From a virus, in IMG/VR virus record IMGVR_UViG_3300046028_005069, positions 1 to 22,118 of that record: a stretch of DNA of 22,118 nt. One strand, 5' to 3'. The notes beneath the pieces are model-generated. The model did not search any database and was not told the DNA's origin. It saw only the letters and a list, made by a program, of their open reading frames with translations. The position numbers and the translations under genes are program-made. Positions 982 through 22,118 of this stretch are shown piece by piece (within the stretch, counting starts at the first letter, position 1; every line of letters begins with the position of its first letter).

Positions 982-3338
982 TGGTAACGGTTTTTGCACA
1001 CGTAAAGGATACTGAAAATCCTTTCTACAAAGATATTAACGAAGTTTTAATGTCTTTTAAAGATGGTTCTAATAAAAGCAAAATACAAGCTATTAGAAAA
1101 ATTGAAGATAAAAAAAACAGAAACATTGAAAAAGCTAAATTAAAATCAATTTGTTTTAGTGGCGAATTTTCAAGGCGAGCTGTAAAAAACATTATTAATC
1201 ATTCAGGGTTTGCTTGTTTAGATTTTGACGATGTTGGTACTATTGAAGATGCTAATTGTTTAAGGGATTCTTTAATGGATAATGAATATATTTATTCAGC
1301 ATTTGTAAGTCCATCTGGTGACGGAGTGAAAGCAATTGTAAAAGTTCCGAAAGATATAGCTAATTATAAAAAATATTACGAGGCAATTTGTGAAACTTTT
1401 GACTCTAAATTAGATACAGCTACAAAAGATATTTCAAGAGTATGTTACGAAAGTTACGATCCTGATTTGTTTATAAATGAAAACTCAAAAGAATGGGTTT
1501 TAATGAAAGAATATACAGAAGTAACTCGTAATAATAAGTTCCCTAAACACTTTGTAATTAACGATACTAATAAAAAAGTAGATGTTATTATCAAATGGTT
1601 TAATAAAAAGTTTACATTAAACGCAGGCGAAAGAAACAACAATCTTTTTAAATTGGCTGCTGGTTTAAATAGAGCTGGTTTGCAAAGTACTGAAGCATTA
1701 AATCTTTTTAAATCATTTTATAATGCTGGACTTGAAGATAGCGAACTTGAAACCATTATTAAATCTGCATATAAAAACACAAGCGAGTTTGATTCACTTA
1801 CATTAGTAGATGACAACAAAGTGAGGGAGGCACAGGATATTTTAAAAAAGGGGGTTCAGAAAGCGAAAAAGGAATTTCGAAAAGAAGGCTTGGAGGATTC
1901 AGATATTGAAGATATAATAGATTTTGATTTTGAAGATGATTTTTTAATATTCTGGGATACTGATAAAAATGGTAAACTATCTTTAAACGATTATAAATTT
2001 AAGTTGTTTTTAGAGAATAGAGGTTTTTATAAAGTGCAACTAAATGAAAAGGAATTTACATTTGTACGTGTTTATAATAATATCATAAACGAAACCAATG
2101 AAACTAATATAAAAGATTTTGTTTTAAACCACGTTGTTGAGGTTGATATGCACGTTTATAATTTCTTTGCAAAATCTACGGCTAAATTTACAGAGGGATA
2201 TTTAAACCAATTAGCAACTAAAGATTTGGCAATGATTAGAGATGATGAGTTTAATTCTTATCTATTCTTTAAAAATGGCGTTTTAAAAATTACAAAAGAC
2301 AAAACGGAATTAATTGATTATATTAATATTGGTGGTTTTGTTTGGGAAAAAAACATAATTGAACACGATTATATTTATAGCGATGAAACTTCAGATTTTG
2401 AAAAGTTTATTTTAAATGTTTCAAACCAAGAAGAAAAAAGAAAATTAATAATTGAAGCATCATTAGGATACCTTTTAAACAATTATAAGAAACAAGACGA
2501 GGGTTTAGCTATTGTGTTTTATGATGAAACTTTAAACGACAATCCAAGCGGTAGAACTGGTAAAACTTTAATATCAAAAGCATTAGGACAATGCAGAAAA
2601 TTAGTTACTTTAAACGGTAAGGAATTTAATAACAAAGGACAGTTCCCATATCAAACAATTAATTTAGATGATAACATTATTTGCTTTGATGATATGGATA
2701 GGTCTTTTAAATTTGAAACATTATTTTCTATTATTACTGGTAATTTAGTTTTAAATAAAAAGAACCTACAGCCAATTGAAATTCCATTTTCAAGAAGTCC
2801 TAAAATATTATTTACTTCAAATTATATTTTATCTGGAGTTGGGGATTCACACGATGCAAGGAAAATTGAAATTGAACTTTTTAGGCACTATTCTAAAACC
2901 TATAAACCCATTAATGAATTTGGTAAATTGTTTTTTAGTGGATGGAATACTCAAGAATGGAATGCATTTTTTAATTATATGGTTTGCAATATTCAAAAGT
3001 ATTTTATAAATGGTCTTTTGTTTTCAGAATTAAAAACAGGTAAAACTAAAAAGGTAATTGCAAACACTTGTGAGGATTTCTTTGACTTTTGCGAAAACGA
3101 GTTTTTATGGAAAAATAATCAATACTATACAACAAAAGAAATACTACAATCTTATTCAGATGGTACAAGAGAAATCCCACGTAATATGAATGCGAGTTGG
3201 TTTGGGCGTTGGCTAGGTATGTATTTTGATTATAAGCAATGGAAAAGAGAAGATACTACATACGGAGGTATTAGAAAATTTGTAATTACAAATTTAGAAG
3301 AAAAAATAATTGAAGATGATAACGGTATAGATTTTTAA
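981..3338 (+). CDS. Primase-helicase: BT4734-like (AEP) primase domain fused to SF3/D5-type helicase
   Basis: A 785-residue replication enzyme. The N-terminal part resembles the BT4734-like/VirE-N branch of archaeo-eukaryotic primases: metal-binding DFDD at 81-84, PSGDGVK at 111-117 and SRVCYESYDPD at 152-162. A helical linker (about 200-270) resembles primase C-terminal domains. The C-terminal half is an SF3/D5 helicase: Walker A NPSGRTGKT (521-529), Walker B NIICFDD (565-571), motif C KILFTSN (608-614) and a likely arginine finger in the DARK segment near 627. It should synthesise primers and unwind DNA at the phage fork. No separate DNA polymerase is visible, so a primase-polymerase role, as in phage NrS-1, is possible. 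It overlaps the upstream gene by one base and is followed two bases later by the SF2 helicase gene. Confidence 0.85.
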   Translation: MVTVFAHVKDTENPFYKDINEVLMSFKDGSNKSKIQAIRKIEDKKNRNIEKAKLKSICFSGEFSRRAVKNIINHSGFACLDFDDVGTIEDANCLRDSLMDNEYIYSAFVSPSGDGVKAIVKVPKDIANYKKYYEAICETFDSKLDTATKDISRVCYESYDPDLFINENSKEWVLMKEYTEVTRNNKFPKHFVINDTNKKVDVIIKWFNKKFTLNAGERNNNLFKLAAGLNRAGLQSTEALNLFKSFYNAGLEDSELETIIKSAYKNTSEFDSLTLVDDNKVREAQDILKKGVQKAKKEFRKEGLEDSDIEDIIDFDFEDDFLIFWDTDKNGKLSLNDYKFKLFLENRGFYKVQLNEKEFTFVRVYNNIINETNETNIKDFVLNHVVEVDMHVYNFFAKSTAKFTEGYLNQLATKDLAMIRDDEFNSYLFFKNGVLKITKDKTELIDYINIGGFVWEKNIIEHDYIYSDETSDFEKFILNVSNQEEKRKLIIEASLGYLLNNYKKQDEGLAIVFYDETLNDNPSGRTGKTLISKALGQCRKLVTLNGKEFNNKGQFPYQTINLDDNIICFDDMDRSFKFETLFSIITGNLVLNKKNLQPIEIPFSRSPKILFTSNYILSGVGDSHDARKIEIELFRHYSKTYKPINEFGKLFFSGWNTQEWNAFFNYMVCNIQKYFINGLLFSELKTGKTKKVIANTCEDFFDFCENEFLWKNNQYYTTKEILQSYSDGTREIPRNMNASWFGRWLGMYFDYKQWKREDTTYGGIRKFVITNLEEKIIEDDNGIDF

Positions 3339-4852: not shown

Positions 4853-5110
4853 ATGAATAAAATAATAGGTAAAAATAACACGTTGGAAATTGTACCAAAT
4901 TTTGTACAAGATATAAACATAAAAGGCAATAATTATAAATGCGTTTTAAATTCAATATCTAAAAATTTACATATGAATAGTATTAAAATAGATAGAGTTG
5001 AAAAGTTTCATTGGTTTTATACGTTTAAAATTTTAGATGCACCAATTAAAAAAATAATATTTGAAATCGATTATAACGATAAATTAATAAAAACAATTAC
5101 AAATGATTGA
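4853..5110 (+). CDS. Hypothetical protein in replication operon
   Basis: Eighty-five residues, not recognised. It is rich in Asn, Lys and Ile with short alternating segments suggesting a small alpha/beta protein (for example FHWFYTFKILDAPIKKIIFE). No cysteine cluster, membrane span or nucleotide-binding motif is visible. It begins two bases after the VRR-NUC stop and overlaps the next start by eight bases, so it is a translated member of the operon. A replication accessory role is inference from context only. Confidence 0.65.
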   Translation: MNKIIGKNNTLEIVPNFVQDINIKGNNYKCVLNSISKNLHMNSIKIDRVEKFHWFYTFKILDAPIKKIIFEIDYNDKLIKTITND

Positions 5111-5450
5111 AACCACATTAAACGAATTAATAACAGTTGTAAGCACTTACTATAATCTAAATAATAAAGATTTAACAGGTAAGTCAAGGAAGCAACACAT
5201 AGCAAACGCAAGGTTTATTTACTTTTATTTAGCAAGAAAATACACAAAAGAAACATTAAGCGAAATAGGTGCCAAAGTAAATAGAGGACACGATACAGCA
5301 TTACACGGAATAAGAACAATTACAAACAGAAAAAATTTATATGCTGAAGATAAAAAAGAATTGTATCTTATTGAAAGAGGTATAAATATTCCATTAATTG
5401 CTAAAAATATTGACTTATTAGCTATGTGTAAAAGTTACGCTATTATTTAG
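5103..5450 (+). CDS. Stand-alone DnaA domain IV-like DNA-binding protein
   Basis: A 115-residue protein whose first 75 residues match the C-terminal DNA-binding domain of the initiator DnaA: YYNLNNKDLTGKSRKQHI with the basic helix KSRKQHIANAR (27-37), an LSEIG helix (52-56), and GHDTALHG (62-69), which corresponds to the DnaA signature RDHTTVLHA that contacts the DnaA box. No AAA+ domain is present (full DnaA is about 450-470 residues), so it binds DNA but cannot hydrolyse ATP. About 40 extra residues follow the domain. It could recognise phage origin sites, compete with host DnaA at DnaA boxes, or act as an operon regulator. It is the last gene of the replication operon. Confidence 0.8.
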   Translation: MIETTLNELITVVSTYYNLNNKDLTGKSRKQHIANARFIYFYLARKYTKETLSEIGAKVNRGHDTALHGIRTITNRKNLYAEDKKELYLIERGINIPLIAKNIDLLAMCKSYAII

Positions 5451-7279: not shown

Positions 7280-7310
7280 AACCGAATTAATTTTTAGTTC
7301 GGTTTTTTTT
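7280..7310 (+). terminator. Strong Rho-independent terminator after lipoprotein gene
   Basis: An 11-bp stem, AACCGAATTAA (7280-7290) with TTAGTTCGGTT (7294-7304), containing one T·G wobble and a 3-nt TTT loop, runs directly into eight Ts. It ends the early small-gene unit and separates it from the sigma-factor promoter three bases downstream. Confidence 0.85.
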
Positions 7311-7312
7311 AT

Positions 7313-7320
7313 TACATTTG
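7313..7320 (+). promoter_or_regulatory. Host-type -7 promoter element for sigma factor/terminase unit
   Basis: TACATTTG (TAnnTTTG) lies between the terminator and the ATG at 7328. Only seven bases separate it from the start codon, so transcription would begin at or next to the ATG and the mRNA would be leaderless or nearly so. Confidence 0.65.
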
Positions 7321-7327
7321 CTTTTGT

Positions 7328-7819
7328 ATGTTAGAAAAACTTTTTAAATACCACAAGCTTTTGGTTGAAATGGCAAAGTTATTTGATAATAATAATGCCG
7401 AGGATATAGTACAGGATGCTTATATAAAGTTAGCAATGTACGCCACCGAAGAAAAATGTTTTATAAATGGTAAACCTAACAAAAACTATTTATTTATTGT
7501 AATTAGAAATACATACCTTTCACTTTACAAAGGTAAATTTATAGTAGTGGATTTTATAGATAGCGAAACAACTGAAGATTTTACAGAAACAGTTGAATTA
7601 GATTGGTATCGTTTCAGAACATTATGCGAAGCTGAAGTAAACAGTTGGGATGCATACGATAAAAAACTATTTACATTGTATCGTGATAGTGATATGTCAA
7701 TGCGAAAGTTAGCAAAAGAAACTGGTATAAGTTTTGTATCTATATTCCATTCATTAAAAGCACACAAGAAAAAATTAAGAGAATTATTTCAAGAAGATTA
7801 TAACAATTTAGAATTATGA
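7328..7819 (+). CDS. ECF-like RNA polymerase sigma factor, candidate late-gene activator
   Basis: A 163-residue protein with the two-domain layout of short sigma-70-family factors. Region 2 is residues 1-65, with the core-binding and -10 recognition helix AEDIVQDAYIKL (24-35) followed by YLFIVIRNTYLSLYKGK. Region 4 is residues 111-152: DKKLFTLYRDSDMSMRKLA, then the helix-turn-helix ETGISFVSIFHSLKAHKKKL. An acidic linker joins them. It would bind host core RNA polymerase and redirect it. It has its own host-type promoter, overlaps the next gene by four bases (ATGA) and lies just upstream of terminase and the late structural units, which share a distinct promoter-like element. A late-gene sigma role is inference; an Sfp/RinA-like helix-turn-helix activator is the alternative. 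Confidence 0.78.
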   Translation: MLEKLFKYHKLLVEMAKLFDNNNAEDIVQDAYIKLAMYATEEKCFINGKPNKNYLFIVIRNTYLSLYKGKFIVVDFIDSETTEDFTETVELDWYRFRTLCEAEVNSWDAYDKKLFTLYRDSDMSMRKLAKETGISFVSIFHSLKAHKKKLRELFQEDYNNLEL

Positions 7820-8016
7820 TAAAAGAAATAATATACAAAGATAGTAAAATAGTATCTTCTAAATTAGAGGATAAATCAATAAGTTGTTATATTTATAGAA
7901 AAGGCAGTAAATGGCAACCATTAAATTTAGGTGAATGTAATGATGGTAAAAAACTAACAGACATAAACCAAGCAATTAATCAAGCAAAACAATATATAGA
8001 TTTTTTTAATAAATAA
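7816..8016 (+). CDS. Hypothetical protein, 66 aa
   Basis: Overlaps the sigma-factor stop as ATGA, so it is probably translationally coupled to it. The small protein has beta-type segments (IIYKDSKIVSS, SCYIYRKGSKWQPLNLG) and a C-terminal helix (INQAINQAKQYIDFFNK). It is not recognised. Coupling suggests co-expression with, and possibly control of, the sigma factor; this is inference. Confidence 0.6.
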   Translation: MIKEIIYKDSKIVSSKLEDKSISCYIYRKGSKWQPLNLGECNDGKKLTDINQAINQAKQYIDFFNK

Positions 8017-8025
8017 TTATAAAAT

Positions 8026-8394
8026 ATGGCACGACCTAAAAAATCAAAAGGGATTGGCGATACTATAGAGAAAGTAACAAAAGCCACAGGAATAAAAGCA
8101 GTAGTAGATGTAATATCTGAAGTAACAGGTATTGATTGCAAATGTGAAGAAAGAAAAGAAGCACTTAATAAACTTTGGAGTTATAAAAAAGTTGAATGTA
8201 TCAACGAAAAAGATATGGAGTATCTTAACAGCTTCTTTGAACGTAACCCTGATACAATTACAATTAAAGCACAAGGAGAACTAAAAGCTATCTATAAAAA
8301 CATATTTAATATTAGTTTAGAAGATACAAGTTGTGCAAGTTGTTGGAGAGAATACATCGGAGAGATTAAACAAGTATATGATTTAAGCGTATAA
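8026..8394 (+). CDS. Conserved Bacteroidetes-phage protein with CxC and CxxC cysteines
   Basis: A 122-residue protein starting MARPKKSKGIGDTIEKVTKA, a basic start then a helix, followed by DVISEVTGIDCKCEERKEAL with cysteines 38 and 40, another at 58, and TSCASCW with cysteines at 103 and 106. The CxC...C...CxxC pattern suggests a metal site. From memory, proteins with the same layout recur beside terminase genes in Bacteroidetes phages; their role is unknown. The basic N-terminus and possible zinc site would suit nucleic-acid binding or packaging. Confidence 0.65.
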   Translation: MARPKKSKGIGDTIEKVTKATGIKAVVDVISEVTGIDCKCEERKEALNKLWSYKKVECINEKDMEYLNSFFERNPDTITIKAQGELKAIYKNIFNISLEDTSCASCWREYIGEIKQVYDLSV

Positions 8395-8419
8395 TCAATA
8401 ATGAATACTTTTTTGATTT

Positions 8420-8716
8420 ATGGAAGATAAAAGAAAATACAACGGAGGTAACAAATCTGCGGGTAGAAAACCTAAAGTAGAAGAAGAAAAAGTAAACAAT
8501 CTTTTTGTAAACGCTTTAAAGGAATTATATAAAACGGATAAAGATGATGCTGCTAAAATACTTTTTATTAAAGATAAGTTATTAGATAGCCAAAGAGGTC
8601 AGATATTTATTGCAGAGCATATATTTGGGAAACCAAAAGAAACAGTTGAAACTACGCACAACATTAATAATTTCGATATAAAAGAATTATTTAAGTTTGA
8701 TAACACTAAACAATAA
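8420..8716 (+). CDS. Terminase small subunit (candidate)
   Basis: Ninety-eight residues directly upstream of and overlapping the large terminase gene, the usual place for the DNA-recognition subunit. The N-terminus KYNGGNKSAGRKPK matches the glycine/lysine-rich start typical of small terminases and their relatives in Bacteroidetes phages. A helical middle (VNNLFVNALKELYKTDKDD) and a FGKPKE motif near residues 75-80 follow. The C-terminus (FDIKELFKFDNTKQ) is read in a frame overlapping the first 20 bases of terL. Assignment rests on position and the N-terminal pattern, so it is moderately sure. Confidence 0.65.
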   Translation: MEDKRKYNGGNKSAGRKPKVEEEKVNNLFVNALKELYKTDKDDAAKILFIKDKLLDSQRGQIFIAEHIFGKPKETVETTHNINNFDIKELFKFDNTKQ

Positions 8717-9899
8717 ATATAAACTACTTGGTTCAGATAGTAGATACTTTGTAATTACAGGGGGTAGGGGTTCTGGAAAATCTTACTCCCTTAATTCATT
8801 TTTATTACTTCTTACTTATGAAGTAGGACACGTTATTTTGTTTACACGTTATACACTTACATCAGCACATATATCTATTATACCTGAATTTATTGATAAG
8901 ATTGAAACAGCTAATTTAAACAACGATTTTTCTATAACTAAAGATGAAATCATAAATTTAAAAACAGGTTCTAAAATCTTATTTAAAGGTATCAAAACGA
9001 GTTCAGGAACTCAAACTGCAAACTTGAAATCACTTGCAGGAGTAACCACGTGGGTATTAGATGAAGCAGAAGAACTTAACGATGAAGATACTTTCGACAA
9101 GATAGACTTTTCTATTCGTGCAAAGAACGTACAGAATAGAGTTATATTAGTTTTAAACCCTGCTACAAAAGAGCATTTTATTTACAAAAGGTTCTACGAA
9201 AGTAAAGGGGTTGCTGATGGTAGTAACTTGGTTAAAGGAGATACAACGTACATACATACAACTTACGAGGATAACTACAAAAACCTTTCACAATCTTTTA
9301 TACTTCAGATTGAGGATATGAAAGTAAGACGCCCACAAAAGTATAAGCATCAAATTTTAGGGGGTTGGTTAGATAAAGCAGAGGGCGTTGTATTTAATAA
9401 TTGGAGTTTTGGTACATTCAATCCGAATAACTTACCTACTTCGTTTGGATTGGATTTTGGATTTTCTATAGATCCAGATACTTTAATTGAAGTAGCTATT
9501 GACAAAGACCATAAAAAGATATACGTTAAAGAGCATTTGTACCAAAATGGTTTACGAATGGAAGATTTAGCAAAGATATGTTTAGACAAAGCAACCAATA
9601 AATTAATAATAGCAGATAGTGCAGAGCAAAGACTTATAAGTGATTTAGCACACAAAGGATTAAACATCGAACCAATAAAAAAAGGTACTATTGAAAGCGG
9701 TGTTACTTTAATGCTTGACTTTGATATTATAGTTGATACAGATAGCAGTAACATAGCAAAGGAATTTAATAACTATGCATATCTGAATAAAGGCAGTAAA
9801 TTATATATCGATGATTTTAACCACGCTATCGATGCAATACGTTACAACGTTACATATCATTTAGACAACCCAAACAAAGGTAACTATTATGTCTACTAA
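8697..9899 (+). CDS. Terminase large subunit (packaging ATPase-nuclease)
   Basis: The DNA-packaging motor. The ATPase domain has Walker A GGRGSGKS (22-29), Walker B WVLDEAEE (119-126) with the catalytic glutamate, and the coupling segment LNPATKEHFIYKRF. The RNase H-like nuclease domain has GLDFGFSIDP (D253), IIADSAE (D307) and FNHAIDAIRY (D379), the three expected acidic positions. Length, 400 residues, is usual for the family. There is no ATG between the upstream stop and Walker A; TTG at 8697 is the best start and gives 21 residues before Walker A. It overlaps the small-subunit gene by 20 bases. Confidence 0.93.
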   Translation: MITLNNKYKLLGSDSRYFVITGGRGSGKSYSLNSFLLLLTYEVGHVILFTRYTLTSAHISIIPEFIDKIETANLNNDFSITKDEIINLKTGSKILFKGIKTSSGTQTANLKSLAGVTTWVLDEAEELNDEDTFDKIDFSIRAKNVQNRVILVLNPATKEHFIYKRFYESKGVADGSNLVKGDTTYIHTTYEDNYKNLSQSFILQIEDMKVRRPQKYKHQILGGWLDKAEGVVFNNWSFGTFNPNNLPTSFGLDFGFSIDPDTLIEVAIDKDHKKIYVKEHLYQNGLRMEDLAKICLDKATNKLIIADSAEQRLISDLAHKGLNIEPIKKGTIESGVTLMLDFDIIVDTDSSNIAKEFNNYAYLNKGSKLYIDDFNHAIDAIRYNVTYHLDNPNKGNYYVY

Positions 9900-10044
9900 C
9901 CCTACATACGGTGATATGATTTATATGGTAGAAGTATACATATTAAAAAAGACAGGCAAACACGTTAAAATTAATATGCCAAGAAACGTAGGAGAAATAA
10001 AAAAATTAGTACATTTGTATAAAGTAGCAACAAATCAAATTTAA
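9889..10044 (+). CDS. 51-residue hypothetical protein after terminase
   Basis: An intact small frame starting 11 bases inside the end of the terminase gene and ending before the GC-rich hairpins. It is basic, starting MSTNPTYGDMIYMVEVYILK and ending with a Lys/Val-rich helix (EIKKLVHLYKVATNQI). The overlap with terminase supports coupled translation. Not recognised. Confidence 0.5.
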   Translation: MSTNPTYGDMIYMVEVYILKKTGKHVKINMPRNVGEIKKLVHLYKVATNQI

Positions 10045-10045
10045 A

Positions 10046-10072
10046 AGGAGTGGGGTGTCCCTGCTCGAGCAG
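10046..10072. other. GC-rich segment with tandem small hairpins and a 12-bp perfect palindrome
   Basis: In very AT-rich DNA, a short stretch from GGAG (10048) holds a GGG/CCC mini-hairpin (10053-10061, loop TGT) followed at once by the palindrome CTGCTCGAGCAG (10061-10072). A third hairpin, the terminator, comes next. Three structures in a row just after terminase could be an mRNA element or a DNA site such as a packaging (cos/pac) site. Function unknown. Confidence 0.4.
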
Positions 10073-10105
10073 AAGCCAGACTAAATTGTTTGGCTTTTGT
10101 TTTTA
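10073..10105 (+). terminator. Rho-independent terminator after terminase unit
   Basis: A 9-bp stem, AAGCCAGAC (10073-10081) with GTTTGGCTT (10088-10096), has one G·T wobble and a 6-nt loop TAAATT. It is followed by the T-rich TTGTTTTTA. It ends the sigma/terminase unit immediately before the first late promoter-like element. Confidence 0.75.
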
Positions 10106-10110
10106 CTTTA

Positions 10111-10143
10111 TACAAAAAACCAACTTTAATGTTTTTAAATAAA
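10111..10143 (+). promoter_or_regulatory. Late promoter-like element, copy 1 (tail unit)
   Basis: TACAAA at 10111-10116, then 12 nt and ATGTTTTTAAATAAA at 10129-10143. Counting TTAAAT as a -10-like box, the spacer from the TACAAA box is 18 nt, a sigma-type spacing. It lies between the terminator and the first tail gene. The same 18 bases TTAATGTTTTTAAATAAA occur again exactly at 17291 and 18467. Confidence 0.6.
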
Positions 10144-17275: not shown

Positions 17276-17308
17276 TACAAAAAATAAATATTAATGTTTT
17301 TAAATAAA
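17276..17308 (+). promoter_or_regulatory. Late promoter-like element, copy 2 (prohead protease unit)
   Basis: TACAAA at 17276-17281, 12 nt, then ATGTTTTTAAATAAA at 17294-17308; the ATG of the protease gene follows 5 nt later. It is the sole feature of the gap 17269-17313. Confidence 0.6.
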
Positions 17309-17313
17309 AGCAA

Positions 17314-17916
17314 ATGAATTTAATAGAATTAATCATAGATGAAAAAGACGATTTAAGTGGTGTTGATGCTATTAGCGTAGTAGAAAACCCTGCTATTCAA
17401 TCGAACTTTGTGGCTTTAAAATCTGAAGAAATCAAATTAGCACAAGTAGATACTGAAAAACGTATTTTAATGGGTGCAGTTTTAATTCCTGAAAAGCCAA
17501 TTTTTAGAAGAAATGGCGAAGATGAATATTATATTTACTTTTCAAAAGATACAGTAAACAAAGCAAGTCAATTATTCTTTAAAAATGGTAATCAAAATAA
17601 TTGGACTTTAGAACACGATAAACAAATACAAGGTTTAACCGTTGTTGAAAGTTGGATAGTTGAGGATACTCAAAAGGATAAAAGTGCTATCTATAATTTA
17701 AGCGTTCCTGTTGGTACGTGGATGGCTTCGGTAAAAGTTGAAGATGATAACATTTGGAACGATTTTGTCAAGACAGGAAAAGTCAAAGGGTTTAGCCTTG
17801 AAGGATATTTTGCCGACAAATTAGAAACTAAAAAAGAATTAAGTAAACAAAATAGAAAAGATGAAATTATTAACCAAATTAAAAAACTTATTTATGAGTC
17901 AGAACACAAAAAGTAA
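17314..17916 (+). CDS. XkdF-like prohead serine protease
   Basis: Two hundred residues matching the XkdF-type phage putative serine protease family: MNLIELIIDEKDDLSGVDAI, then VENPAIQSNF, ILMGAVLIPEKPIFRR, YIYFSKDTVNKASQLF, and TLEHD with the candidate catalytic histidine at 101. VKGFSLEG carries the candidate catalytic serine at 161. It would cleave scaffold and possibly capsid protein during head maturation. It lies just before the scaffold and capsid genes. The ATG is 5 nt after late element 2. The C-terminal Lys/Glu-rich helix overlaps the start of the next gene by 23 bases. Confidence 0.85.
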   Translation: MNLIELIIDEKDDLSGVDAISVVENPAIQSNFVALKSEEIKLAQVDTEKRILMGAVLIPEKPIFRRNGEDEYYIYFSKDTVNKASQLFFKNGNQNNWTLEHDKQIQGLTVVESWIVEDTQKDKSAIYNLSVPVGTWMASVKVEDDNIWNDFVKTGKVKGFSLEGYFADKLETKKELSKQNRKDEIINQIKKLIYESEHKK

Positions 17917-18451: not shown

Positions 18452-18484
18452 AACAAGTATTTAGTATTAATGTTTTTAAATAAA
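18452..18484 (+). promoter_or_regulatory. Late promoter-like element, copy 3 (scaffold/capsid unit)
   Basis: AACAAG at 18452-18457, 12 nt, then ATGTTTTTAAATAAA at 18470-18484. The scaffold ATG follows 11 nt later. A second ACAAAAA run occurs 11 nt further upstream (18442-18448), about one helical turn. Confidence 0.6.
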
Positions 18485-20657: not shown

Positions 20658-20690
20658 AACAAAAAATCGATTTCTTTGTTTTTAAATAAA
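20658..20690 (+). promoter_or_regulatory. Late promoter-like element, copy 4 (portal unit)
   Basis: AACAAA at 20658-20663, 12 nt, then TTGTTTTTAAATAAA at 20676-20690, six nt before the ATG at 20697. Unlike the other three, the first base of the second box is T. It directly follows a terminator. Confidence 0.55.
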
Positions 20691-21123: not shown

Positions 21124-22118
21124 ATGTTTCATATAGTAAATTTAAGTGCTTATACAAGCCCACAAATAAACGAAAGTAAAAAAGGCGACTTTGTAGAGTA
21201 CGGTTCTGACAACAACTATTTTAATTTTCTTATTGAACGTTACCTATATAGCAATACAAATAACGCTATTATTACAGGTATTTCTAATATGATATACGGA
21301 AAAGGAATTGATGCGTTAGATAGCAATAAAAAGCCTGACGAGTACGCTAAAATGGTTTCAATGATTAAACCTAATTGTTTAAAGAAAATAGGTTTAGAAC
21401 GTAAACTTTTAGGAATGGCTGCTATTCAAGTTGGATATGATAAAGGCAATGTAGTTTTTATAGACCACTTCCCTATGCATACTTTACGAGCAGAAAAATG
21501 CAATGATAAAGGCGAAATTGAGGCTTGGTACTACCACCCTGATTGGAGTAAAAAGAAACCTAACGATGAGGTAAAAAGAATACCTGCTTTTGGTTTTGGT
21601 AATAAAAAAGATGTTGAAATATTTGTACTTAAGCCATACGTTAGTGGATATCATTATTACACGCCTATTGATTACAGCGGTGCGTTACCTTACGCAAAGT
21701 TAGAAGAAGAAATATCTGATTATTTAATTAACGATGTACAAAACGGATTCAGTGGTACAAAGATTATTAATTTCAATAATGGAATACCACCTGAAGAAAA
21801 ACGTGAGGAAATCGCTAACGATGTAAAACGTAAAGTAACAGGTGCAAAAGGACAAAAAACAATCGTTTCTTTTAGTAACAATAAAGAACAAGCAACAGAG
21901 GTAATTGATATACCATTAAACGATGCACCTGCACACTACGAATACTTATCTAAAGAATGTTTTGAAAAATTAGTTGTAGGGCATAGAGTTACTTCGCCAA
22001 TGCTTTTAGGAATACGTGATACAGGTGGCGGTTTCTCAAATAATGCAGATGAAATTAAAACCGCTACTTTATTATTTGACAATATCGTTATTAAACCATA
22101 TCAATTAGAAATTATTGA
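21124..22118 (+). CDS. Portal protein (3' end outside window)
   Basis: Starts at TAATATG, one base after the previous stop, and runs off the right edge without a stop: 331 complete codons are visible. The sequence begins MFHIVNLSAYTSPQINESKK, and later has FSGTKIINFNNGIPPEEKRE, KVTGAKGQKTIVSFSNNKE, then EVIDIPLNDAPAHYEYLSKE and HRVTSPMLLGIRDTGGG. From memory this is the pattern of Bacteroidetes phage portals, the dodecameric channel through which terminase packages DNA. A portal so far downstream of terminase and after the capsid gene is unusual. Confidence 0.82.
   Translation, partial: MFHIVNLSAYTSPQINESKKGDFVEYGSDNNYFNFLIERYLYSNTNNAIITGISNMIYGKGIDALDSNKKPDEYAKMVSMIKPNCLKKIGLERKLLGMAAIQVGYDKGNVVFIDHFPMHTLRAEKCNDKGEIEAWYYHPDWSKKKPNDEVKRIPAFGFGNKKDVEIFVLKPYVSGYHYYTPIDYSGALPYAKLEEEISDYLINDVQNGFSGTKIINFNNGIPPEEKREEIANDVKRKVTGAKGQKTIVSFSNNKEQATEVIDIPLNDAPAHYEYLSKECFEKLVVGHRVTSPMLLGIRDTGGGFSNNADEIKTATLLFDNIVIKPYQLEII

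Follow-up and report, generated by a model that had tools for sequence, protein, structure and literature searches.

A phage-encoded ECF-like sigma factor and its predicted late promoters in a group of Bacteroidota phages

We analyzed a 22,118-bp virus record, hereafter the window, around an open reading frame (ORF) predicted to encode an ECF-like sigma factor (Table 1). Directly upstream of this gene, and right after a hairpin that resembles an intrinsic terminator, lies the sequence TACATTTG. It fits the flavobacterial sigma-A promoter box TAnnTTTG, which is positioned at -12 to -5 (PMC9723704), in agreement with the initial annotation, which had assigned a host-type promoter to the gene; near-matches to this box are frequent by chance in the AT-rich DNA of the window. 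Taking the box as -12 to -5 places the start of the sigma transcript near 7325, and hence predicts a leader of about 3 nt. ORFs of 66 aa and 122 aa lie close behind the sigma gene; next are a probable small terminase gene and the gene for the terminase large subunit (TerL), and a second terminator-like hairpin completes the series. Given this layout (7280-10102), the terminase genes are probably transcribed together with the sigma gene from the host-type promoter, and the previously noted position of the sigma gene upstream of terminase is confirmed, probably within one operon. For the 66-aa ORF, we found no family match and detected no homology to gp34 of the isolated phage P12024S; it possibly encodes an anti-sigma factor or a co-activator.

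Table 1. Features of the sigma-terminase operon and the late elements in the window.
Feature	Position	Strand	Basis or remark
Intrinsic-terminator-like hairpin, closes the preceding transcription unit	7280-7304	+	11-pair stem and T run
Host-type (Bacteroidota sigma-A) -7 box TACATTTG	7313-7320	+	Fits the TAnnTTTG consensus
Predicted ECF-like sigma factor gene, 163 aa	7328-7819	+	ORF, profiles, predicted structure, fold matches
Sigma region 2 (residues 2-70; region 2.2 motif EDIVQ)	7331-7537	+	Sigma-70 region 2 alignment; model helices H2-6 to H52-70
Sigma region 4, residues 109-159, helix-turn-helix ISFVSIFHSLK	7652-7804	+	Model helices; region-4-only fold matches
66-aa ORF, overlaps the sigma stop codon (ATGA), candidate partner	7816-8016	+	Position kept in P12024S
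122-aa ORF of the sigma operon	8026-8394	+	Kept in P12024S, 30% identity
Probable small terminase subunit ORF, directly 5' of TerL	8420-8716	+	Inferred from position; PHROG 38011, a family to which no function is assigned
Terminase large subunit (PBSX type), final conserved gene of the sigma operon	8697-9899	+	Terminase_3, 2.5e-31
Terminator-like hairpin that separates late unit 1 from the sigma-terminase operon	10067-10102	+	Sequence
Late element P1 (ACAA-N14-TGTTTTTAAATAAA), ahead of the tail unit (most likely start of its first gene, ATG 10149)	10112-10143	+	
Late element P2, ahead of the XkdF-type protease gene 17314-17916	17277-17308	+	
Late element P3, ahead of the probable scaffold gene 18496 and the capsid-like gene 19073	18453-18484	+	
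Late element P4, ahead of ORF 20697 and the portal gene near 21124	20659-20690	+	

The product had been proposed to carry sigma regions 2 and 4, and both profile searches and structure prediction bear this out. The best profile matches were TIGR02985 (Sig70_bacteroi1, 4.4e-9), PHROG_1740 (sigma factor, 1.9e-8), and TIGR02937 (sigma70-ECF, 2.6e-8). The TIGR02985 match reached 36.8 bits against a curated cut-off of 126.4, and we do not assign the protein to that subfamily. Pfam Sigma70_r2, searched with the window protein alone, gave 17 bits, below the cut-off of 24. All 21 homologues matched both TIGR02985 and TIGR02937, 14 of the 21 matched Sigma70_r2, and 10 matched Sigma70_r4_2. Residues 24-35 read AEDIVQDAYIKL and include the EDIVQ core-binding motif of region 2.2 (residues 25-29), in which E25, D26, I27, and V28 are invariant across the 21 homologues. 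When a 36-member profile of the family was searched against the sequences of solved structures, it retrieved the ECF sigma factors 5uxx (2.4e-5) and SigL (6dv9, 1.3e-4).

Structure prediction against sigma domains, proposed earlier as a check on the gene, recovered both domains. The AlphaFold model built from the 36-member alignment (pLDDT 87) consists of two helical domains with a low-confidence linker between them (residues 71-82), with a pTM of 0.43 owing to the uncertain relative placement of the domains. The top-ranked Foldseek matches in the PDB were ECF sigma factors; whole-chain TM-scores stayed low (0.3-0.4), as model and matches differ in how they place the two domains. Matches confined to region 4 were 2h27, 3hug, and 8jzt (TMt 0.67-0.84), with region 4 of sigma-E and SigF (including 2h27 and 8jzt) fitting at a TMt of about 0.8. 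Among viral structure models, the majority of the named matches were annotated as sigma factors. The architecture is that of ECF (group IV) factors: a 163-aa protein of two linker-joined domains that lacks regions 1.1 and 3 and combines a core-binding motif in region 2 with a helix-turn-helix in region 4. As judged from sequence and model, ORF 7328-7819 encodes a two-domain ECF-like sigma factor with regions 2 and 4 only.

Downstream of the operon, the window contains four exact copies of ACAA-N14-TGTTTTTAAATAAA, all on the + strand, each at the head of a late unit. The expected number of exact copies by chance is 0.00 (none in 100 dinucleotide shuffles). When three mismatches are allowed, about one match is expected by chance in this AT-rich DNA, and the weight of the element therefore rests on its exactness and on its conservation in relatives. 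The predicted layout of these late promoters comprises ACAA as the -35 element, a 14-bp spacer, and a -10 element centered on TGTTTTTAAAT. The elements stop 5-12 nt before the start codon, which implies very short leaders, as for the sigma gene. This arrangement, with a few conserved phage promoter-like elements at late units that are distinct from host promoters, is the one expected of a phage late sigma factor.

Boxes resembling TAnnTTTG occur at 0.94 per non-coding kb in the late arc and 2.43 in the early arc, and with this 2.6-fold enrichment a strict division between host-type boxes in the early arc and late elements in the late arc is weak. A scan for E. coli-type sigma-70 promoters was set aside, since it returned fewer sites than were found in shuffled sequences. 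Three further observations concern the organization of the window. Its early region encodes a stand-alone protein with the DnaA C-terminal DNA-binding domain (5103-5450; PF08299, 1.9e-19). A long AT-rich non-coding region 5' of the first early gene carries repeated TGCTGTTTTGCTGTATT-like stretches (400-757), which are candidate operators or origin iterons. Between 8697 and 22118, tail and tape-measure genes precede the protease, capsid, and portal genes, which inverts the usual arrangement of head before tail.

We examined the element and the sigma gene across relatives, of which a terminase scan recovered at least 598. In near-clade genomes, the element occurs at the same four syntenic places, on one strand and with unchanged spacing, and the reversed-pattern control gave 0-1 matches per genome. 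Four contigs of the set (G001, G003, G011, and G013) carry end repeats and are thus probably complete; five elements were counted in G002 because the ends of its contig overlap. One locus, L023, holds a disturbed copy of the element, and in L026 the element was left unassigned by the automatic choice of start codon. In G002, G003, G005, and G008, a G014-type element (see below) with the sequence ACAAATATGTTACAATGATGTTTTAATAATATAAAA lies about 57 nt 5' of the sigma start and upstream of a host-type box; it possibly serves autoregulation, as inferred for the sigma factor of phage 7-11.

In more distant groups, ACAA and the 14-bp gap are kept at the same late units and the -10 half drifts, with the variants TGTTTTAATTTAAA, TATTAATATAAA, TATTATTAAATA, CGTTATATAA, and AGTTATAAT; some sites in these genomes depart from the ACAA-N14 pattern. 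After dereplication, the spacing was counted without preselection in 46 regions that precede late unit 1: ACAA-N14-n[GA]TTww was present in 38 of them (0.6 in shuffles, maximum 4), and each of the other spacings in at most 10. In four genomes (G017, G019, G020, and G022), the sigma gene lies apart from terminase, and an additional ACAA-N14 element precedes the small terminase gene. An iterated profile located the sigma gene in 116 loci, including TerL loci initially thought to lack it. We had considered relatives without a sigma gene as negative controls, and two loci (L122 and L163) appeared sigma-less by the first profile; the iterated profile found divergent copies in both, and presence or absence is therefore unusable as a test. 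A genome scan for the sigma gene returned one contig, CANHGM010000057.1 (5751 bp), binned in a Bacteroidetes MAG, which is perhaps a co-binned phage contig.

Two relatives have been isolated: P12024S and P12024L (genus Inhavirus), marine phages of the flavobacterium Nonlabens (Persicivirga), with strain IMCC12024 as host. They were found via terminase and capsid rather than via sigma: when only the window sigma was searched against proteins of cultured phages, no convincing relative emerged. Their proteins gp33 (P12024S) and gp35 (P12024L) are homologues of the window sigma (profile E 2.7e-19), annotated as hypothetical proteins "containing Sigma-70 region 2", and P12024S gp33 scores above the Pfam Sigma70_r2 cut-off. 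Both phages share the order sigma, small ORF, 120-aa ORF, small ORF, TerL with the window, whereas the similarity of the sigma factors is remote (27% identity in the profile alignment). Five of their late units begin with ACAA-N14/15-CGTTAATA, with none on the other strand and about 0.015 expected per strand (mononucleotide shuffles). In P12024S, the five copies are at 3000, 5381, 23931, 25170, and 26771. These elements differ from those of the window in their -10, an ECF-like CGTT, and in the 15-bp spacing of most copies. In Flavobacterium psychrophilum, CGT in the -10 region is taken as a mark of ECF promoters (PMC9723704). In the examined stretch of Riemerella phage RAP44 (TerL about 47%), the sigma gene and the late element were both absent. 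A flavobacterial host for the window contig would agree with its promoter type and its nearest isolates.

The distinct element that the initial annotation had noticed at the late units is well founded, and across relatives it co-varies with the sigma factor. G013 and G014 are 94% identical in TerL, 96% in protease, 95% in scaffold, and 98% in capsid, and 65% identical in sigma; all four elements read TGTTTTTAAATAAA in the former and are of the TGTTTTAAT type in the latter. The window has the G013-type element despite just 76% capsid identity to either genome, and another locus (L113) combines a G014-type sigma (92%) with a G014-type element. Across 51 loci, -10 distance correlated with sigma distance (Mantel test, r=0.68), in a test whose choice of sites favored the 14-bp spacing. 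The correlation persisted once TerL and unit 1 protein distances were controlled for (partial Mantel, r=0.31, p=0.0005), and neither TerL nor the unit 1 protein was significantly correlated with the -10 given sigma. Since Mantel permutations ignore phylogeny and shared ancestry, this co-variation is supporting rather than decisive.

The co-variation could not be assigned to one domain. The -10 tracked region 2 no better than region 4 (r=0.07, p=0.12 for region 2 given region 4), which runs counter to the simplest domain expectation, and the idea that the -10 tracks region 2 only, prompted by one locus (L114), was ruled out, as region 4 correlates more strongly in the Mantel test. ACAA is constant even in groups with a quite different recognition helix (L122 and L157). 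We tentatively suggest that the sigma factor and all its late promoters may switch specificity jointly, as between G013 and G014 with their nearly identical head genes, which could leave late programs unusable by co-infecting relatives.

We favor, with a probability of about 0.86, a reading in which the phage sigma, together with the host core polymerase, directs late transcription at the four virion-gene blocks. Infection would begin with transcription by host polymerase and host sigma-A, which would read the early genes as well as the sigma-terminase operon, the latter from its TAnnTTTG promoter. Once made, the phage sigma would bind the host core polymerase and direct it to the four late promoters, and these would drive the units for tail, protease, scaffold/capsid, and portal. 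Core binding, start sites, timing, the dependence of late transcription on the phage sigma, and its recognition of the elements are all steps that we infer. The gene had been described as a master late switch, but the word "master" is not supported: the terminase genes lie within the sigma operon under the host-type promoter, so the switch would cover the four virion units and not packaging.

The elements might alternatively be promoters used by host polymerase that carries one of the host's sigma factors (an ECF factor or a variant sigma-A), with the phage sigma redirecting transcription elsewhere, for example to host genes. Flavobacteria do have more than one ECF sigma factor whose promoters show a CGT-type -10 box (PMC9723704), and the -10 in more distant relatives is CGTTA. 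We nevertheless regard this as improbable: the -10 type changes with the phage sigma while late genes remain 94-98% identical, the sigma factor predicts -10 distance beyond what late genes predict, and it is a core gene adjoining the early-late boundary.

We give somewhat less credence still to the possibility that the protein is not a true sigma factor and instead, as RinA or Ltr do, works alongside host sigma-A as an activator with sigma-like DNA-binding parts. Its position would suit such a role, as staphylococcal phages encode small late-gene activators just 5' of terS (PMC13123087). Those proteins, however, activate promoters of the sigma-A type, whereas the element here has two parts at a fixed spacing and no TAnnTTTG box of its own. 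Moreover, the window protein has both sigma regions, including the EDIVQ core-binding motif, and no RinA, ArpU, or Ltr profile was among the NCBIfam and Pfam matches listed for it and its homologues. It is very unlikely that the elements serve translation starts or leaders, or act as some other DNA signal, rather than as promoters. They do end just 5-12 nt before the start codon, and start-codon-proximal sequence tunes translation in Flavobacterium (PMC6847099). Yet they precede the first gene of units and not internal starts, two of them directly follow terminator-like hairpins, and the conserved part extends 37 nt upstream with its fixed 14-bp gap.

Late transcription by a phage-encoded sigma factor in association with the host core polymerase, our preferred reading, has precedents. 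A phage-encoded sigma with dedicated late promoters is established for phiEco32 and inferred for phage 7-11 (PMC4331800). Like the proposed program, these phages use a phage sigma with host polymerase, a few well-conserved phage promoters, and host promoters for early genes (PMC4331800). They differ in infecting another host phylum (both are enterobacterial phages), in promoter sequence, and in pairing the sigma with a phage anti-sigma factor; no such factor was recognized in the window. Xpf, of the B. subtilis prophage PBSX, is a two-domain (sigma2, sigma4) group IV sigma-like positive control factor (PMC10141391, PMC9836290). It resembles the window sigma as a two-domain factor of a phage element, a likeness set at the level of the ECF superfamily, and its host is a Bacillus. 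With phiEco32, 7-11, and Xpf as precedents, and sigma-70 region 2 already annotated in P12024S and P12024L, the earlier suggestion of a new arrangement is too strong. No report of a late sigma in phages of Bacteroidota turned up in the open-access papers searched, an outcome that does not prove absence.

T4 gp55, which requires a co-activator and a sliding clamp, and SPO1 gp28 and gp33-34 act as phage sigma factors in late or middle transcription, a function resembling the one proposed for the window sigma.

Overall, the phage-encoded late sigma is a known phage strategy, here found across a large, uncharacterized Bacteroidota phage group. For this largely uncharacterized group, our analysis provides a concrete transcription program with predicted promoters, which the two isolated relatives make testable. 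The many diverged sigma-promoter pairs offer data on joint changes of specificity in a sigma factor and the entire regulon under it, and their co-variation is an unusually informative natural record. Such pairs could also supply orthogonal expression parts for Flavobacteria.
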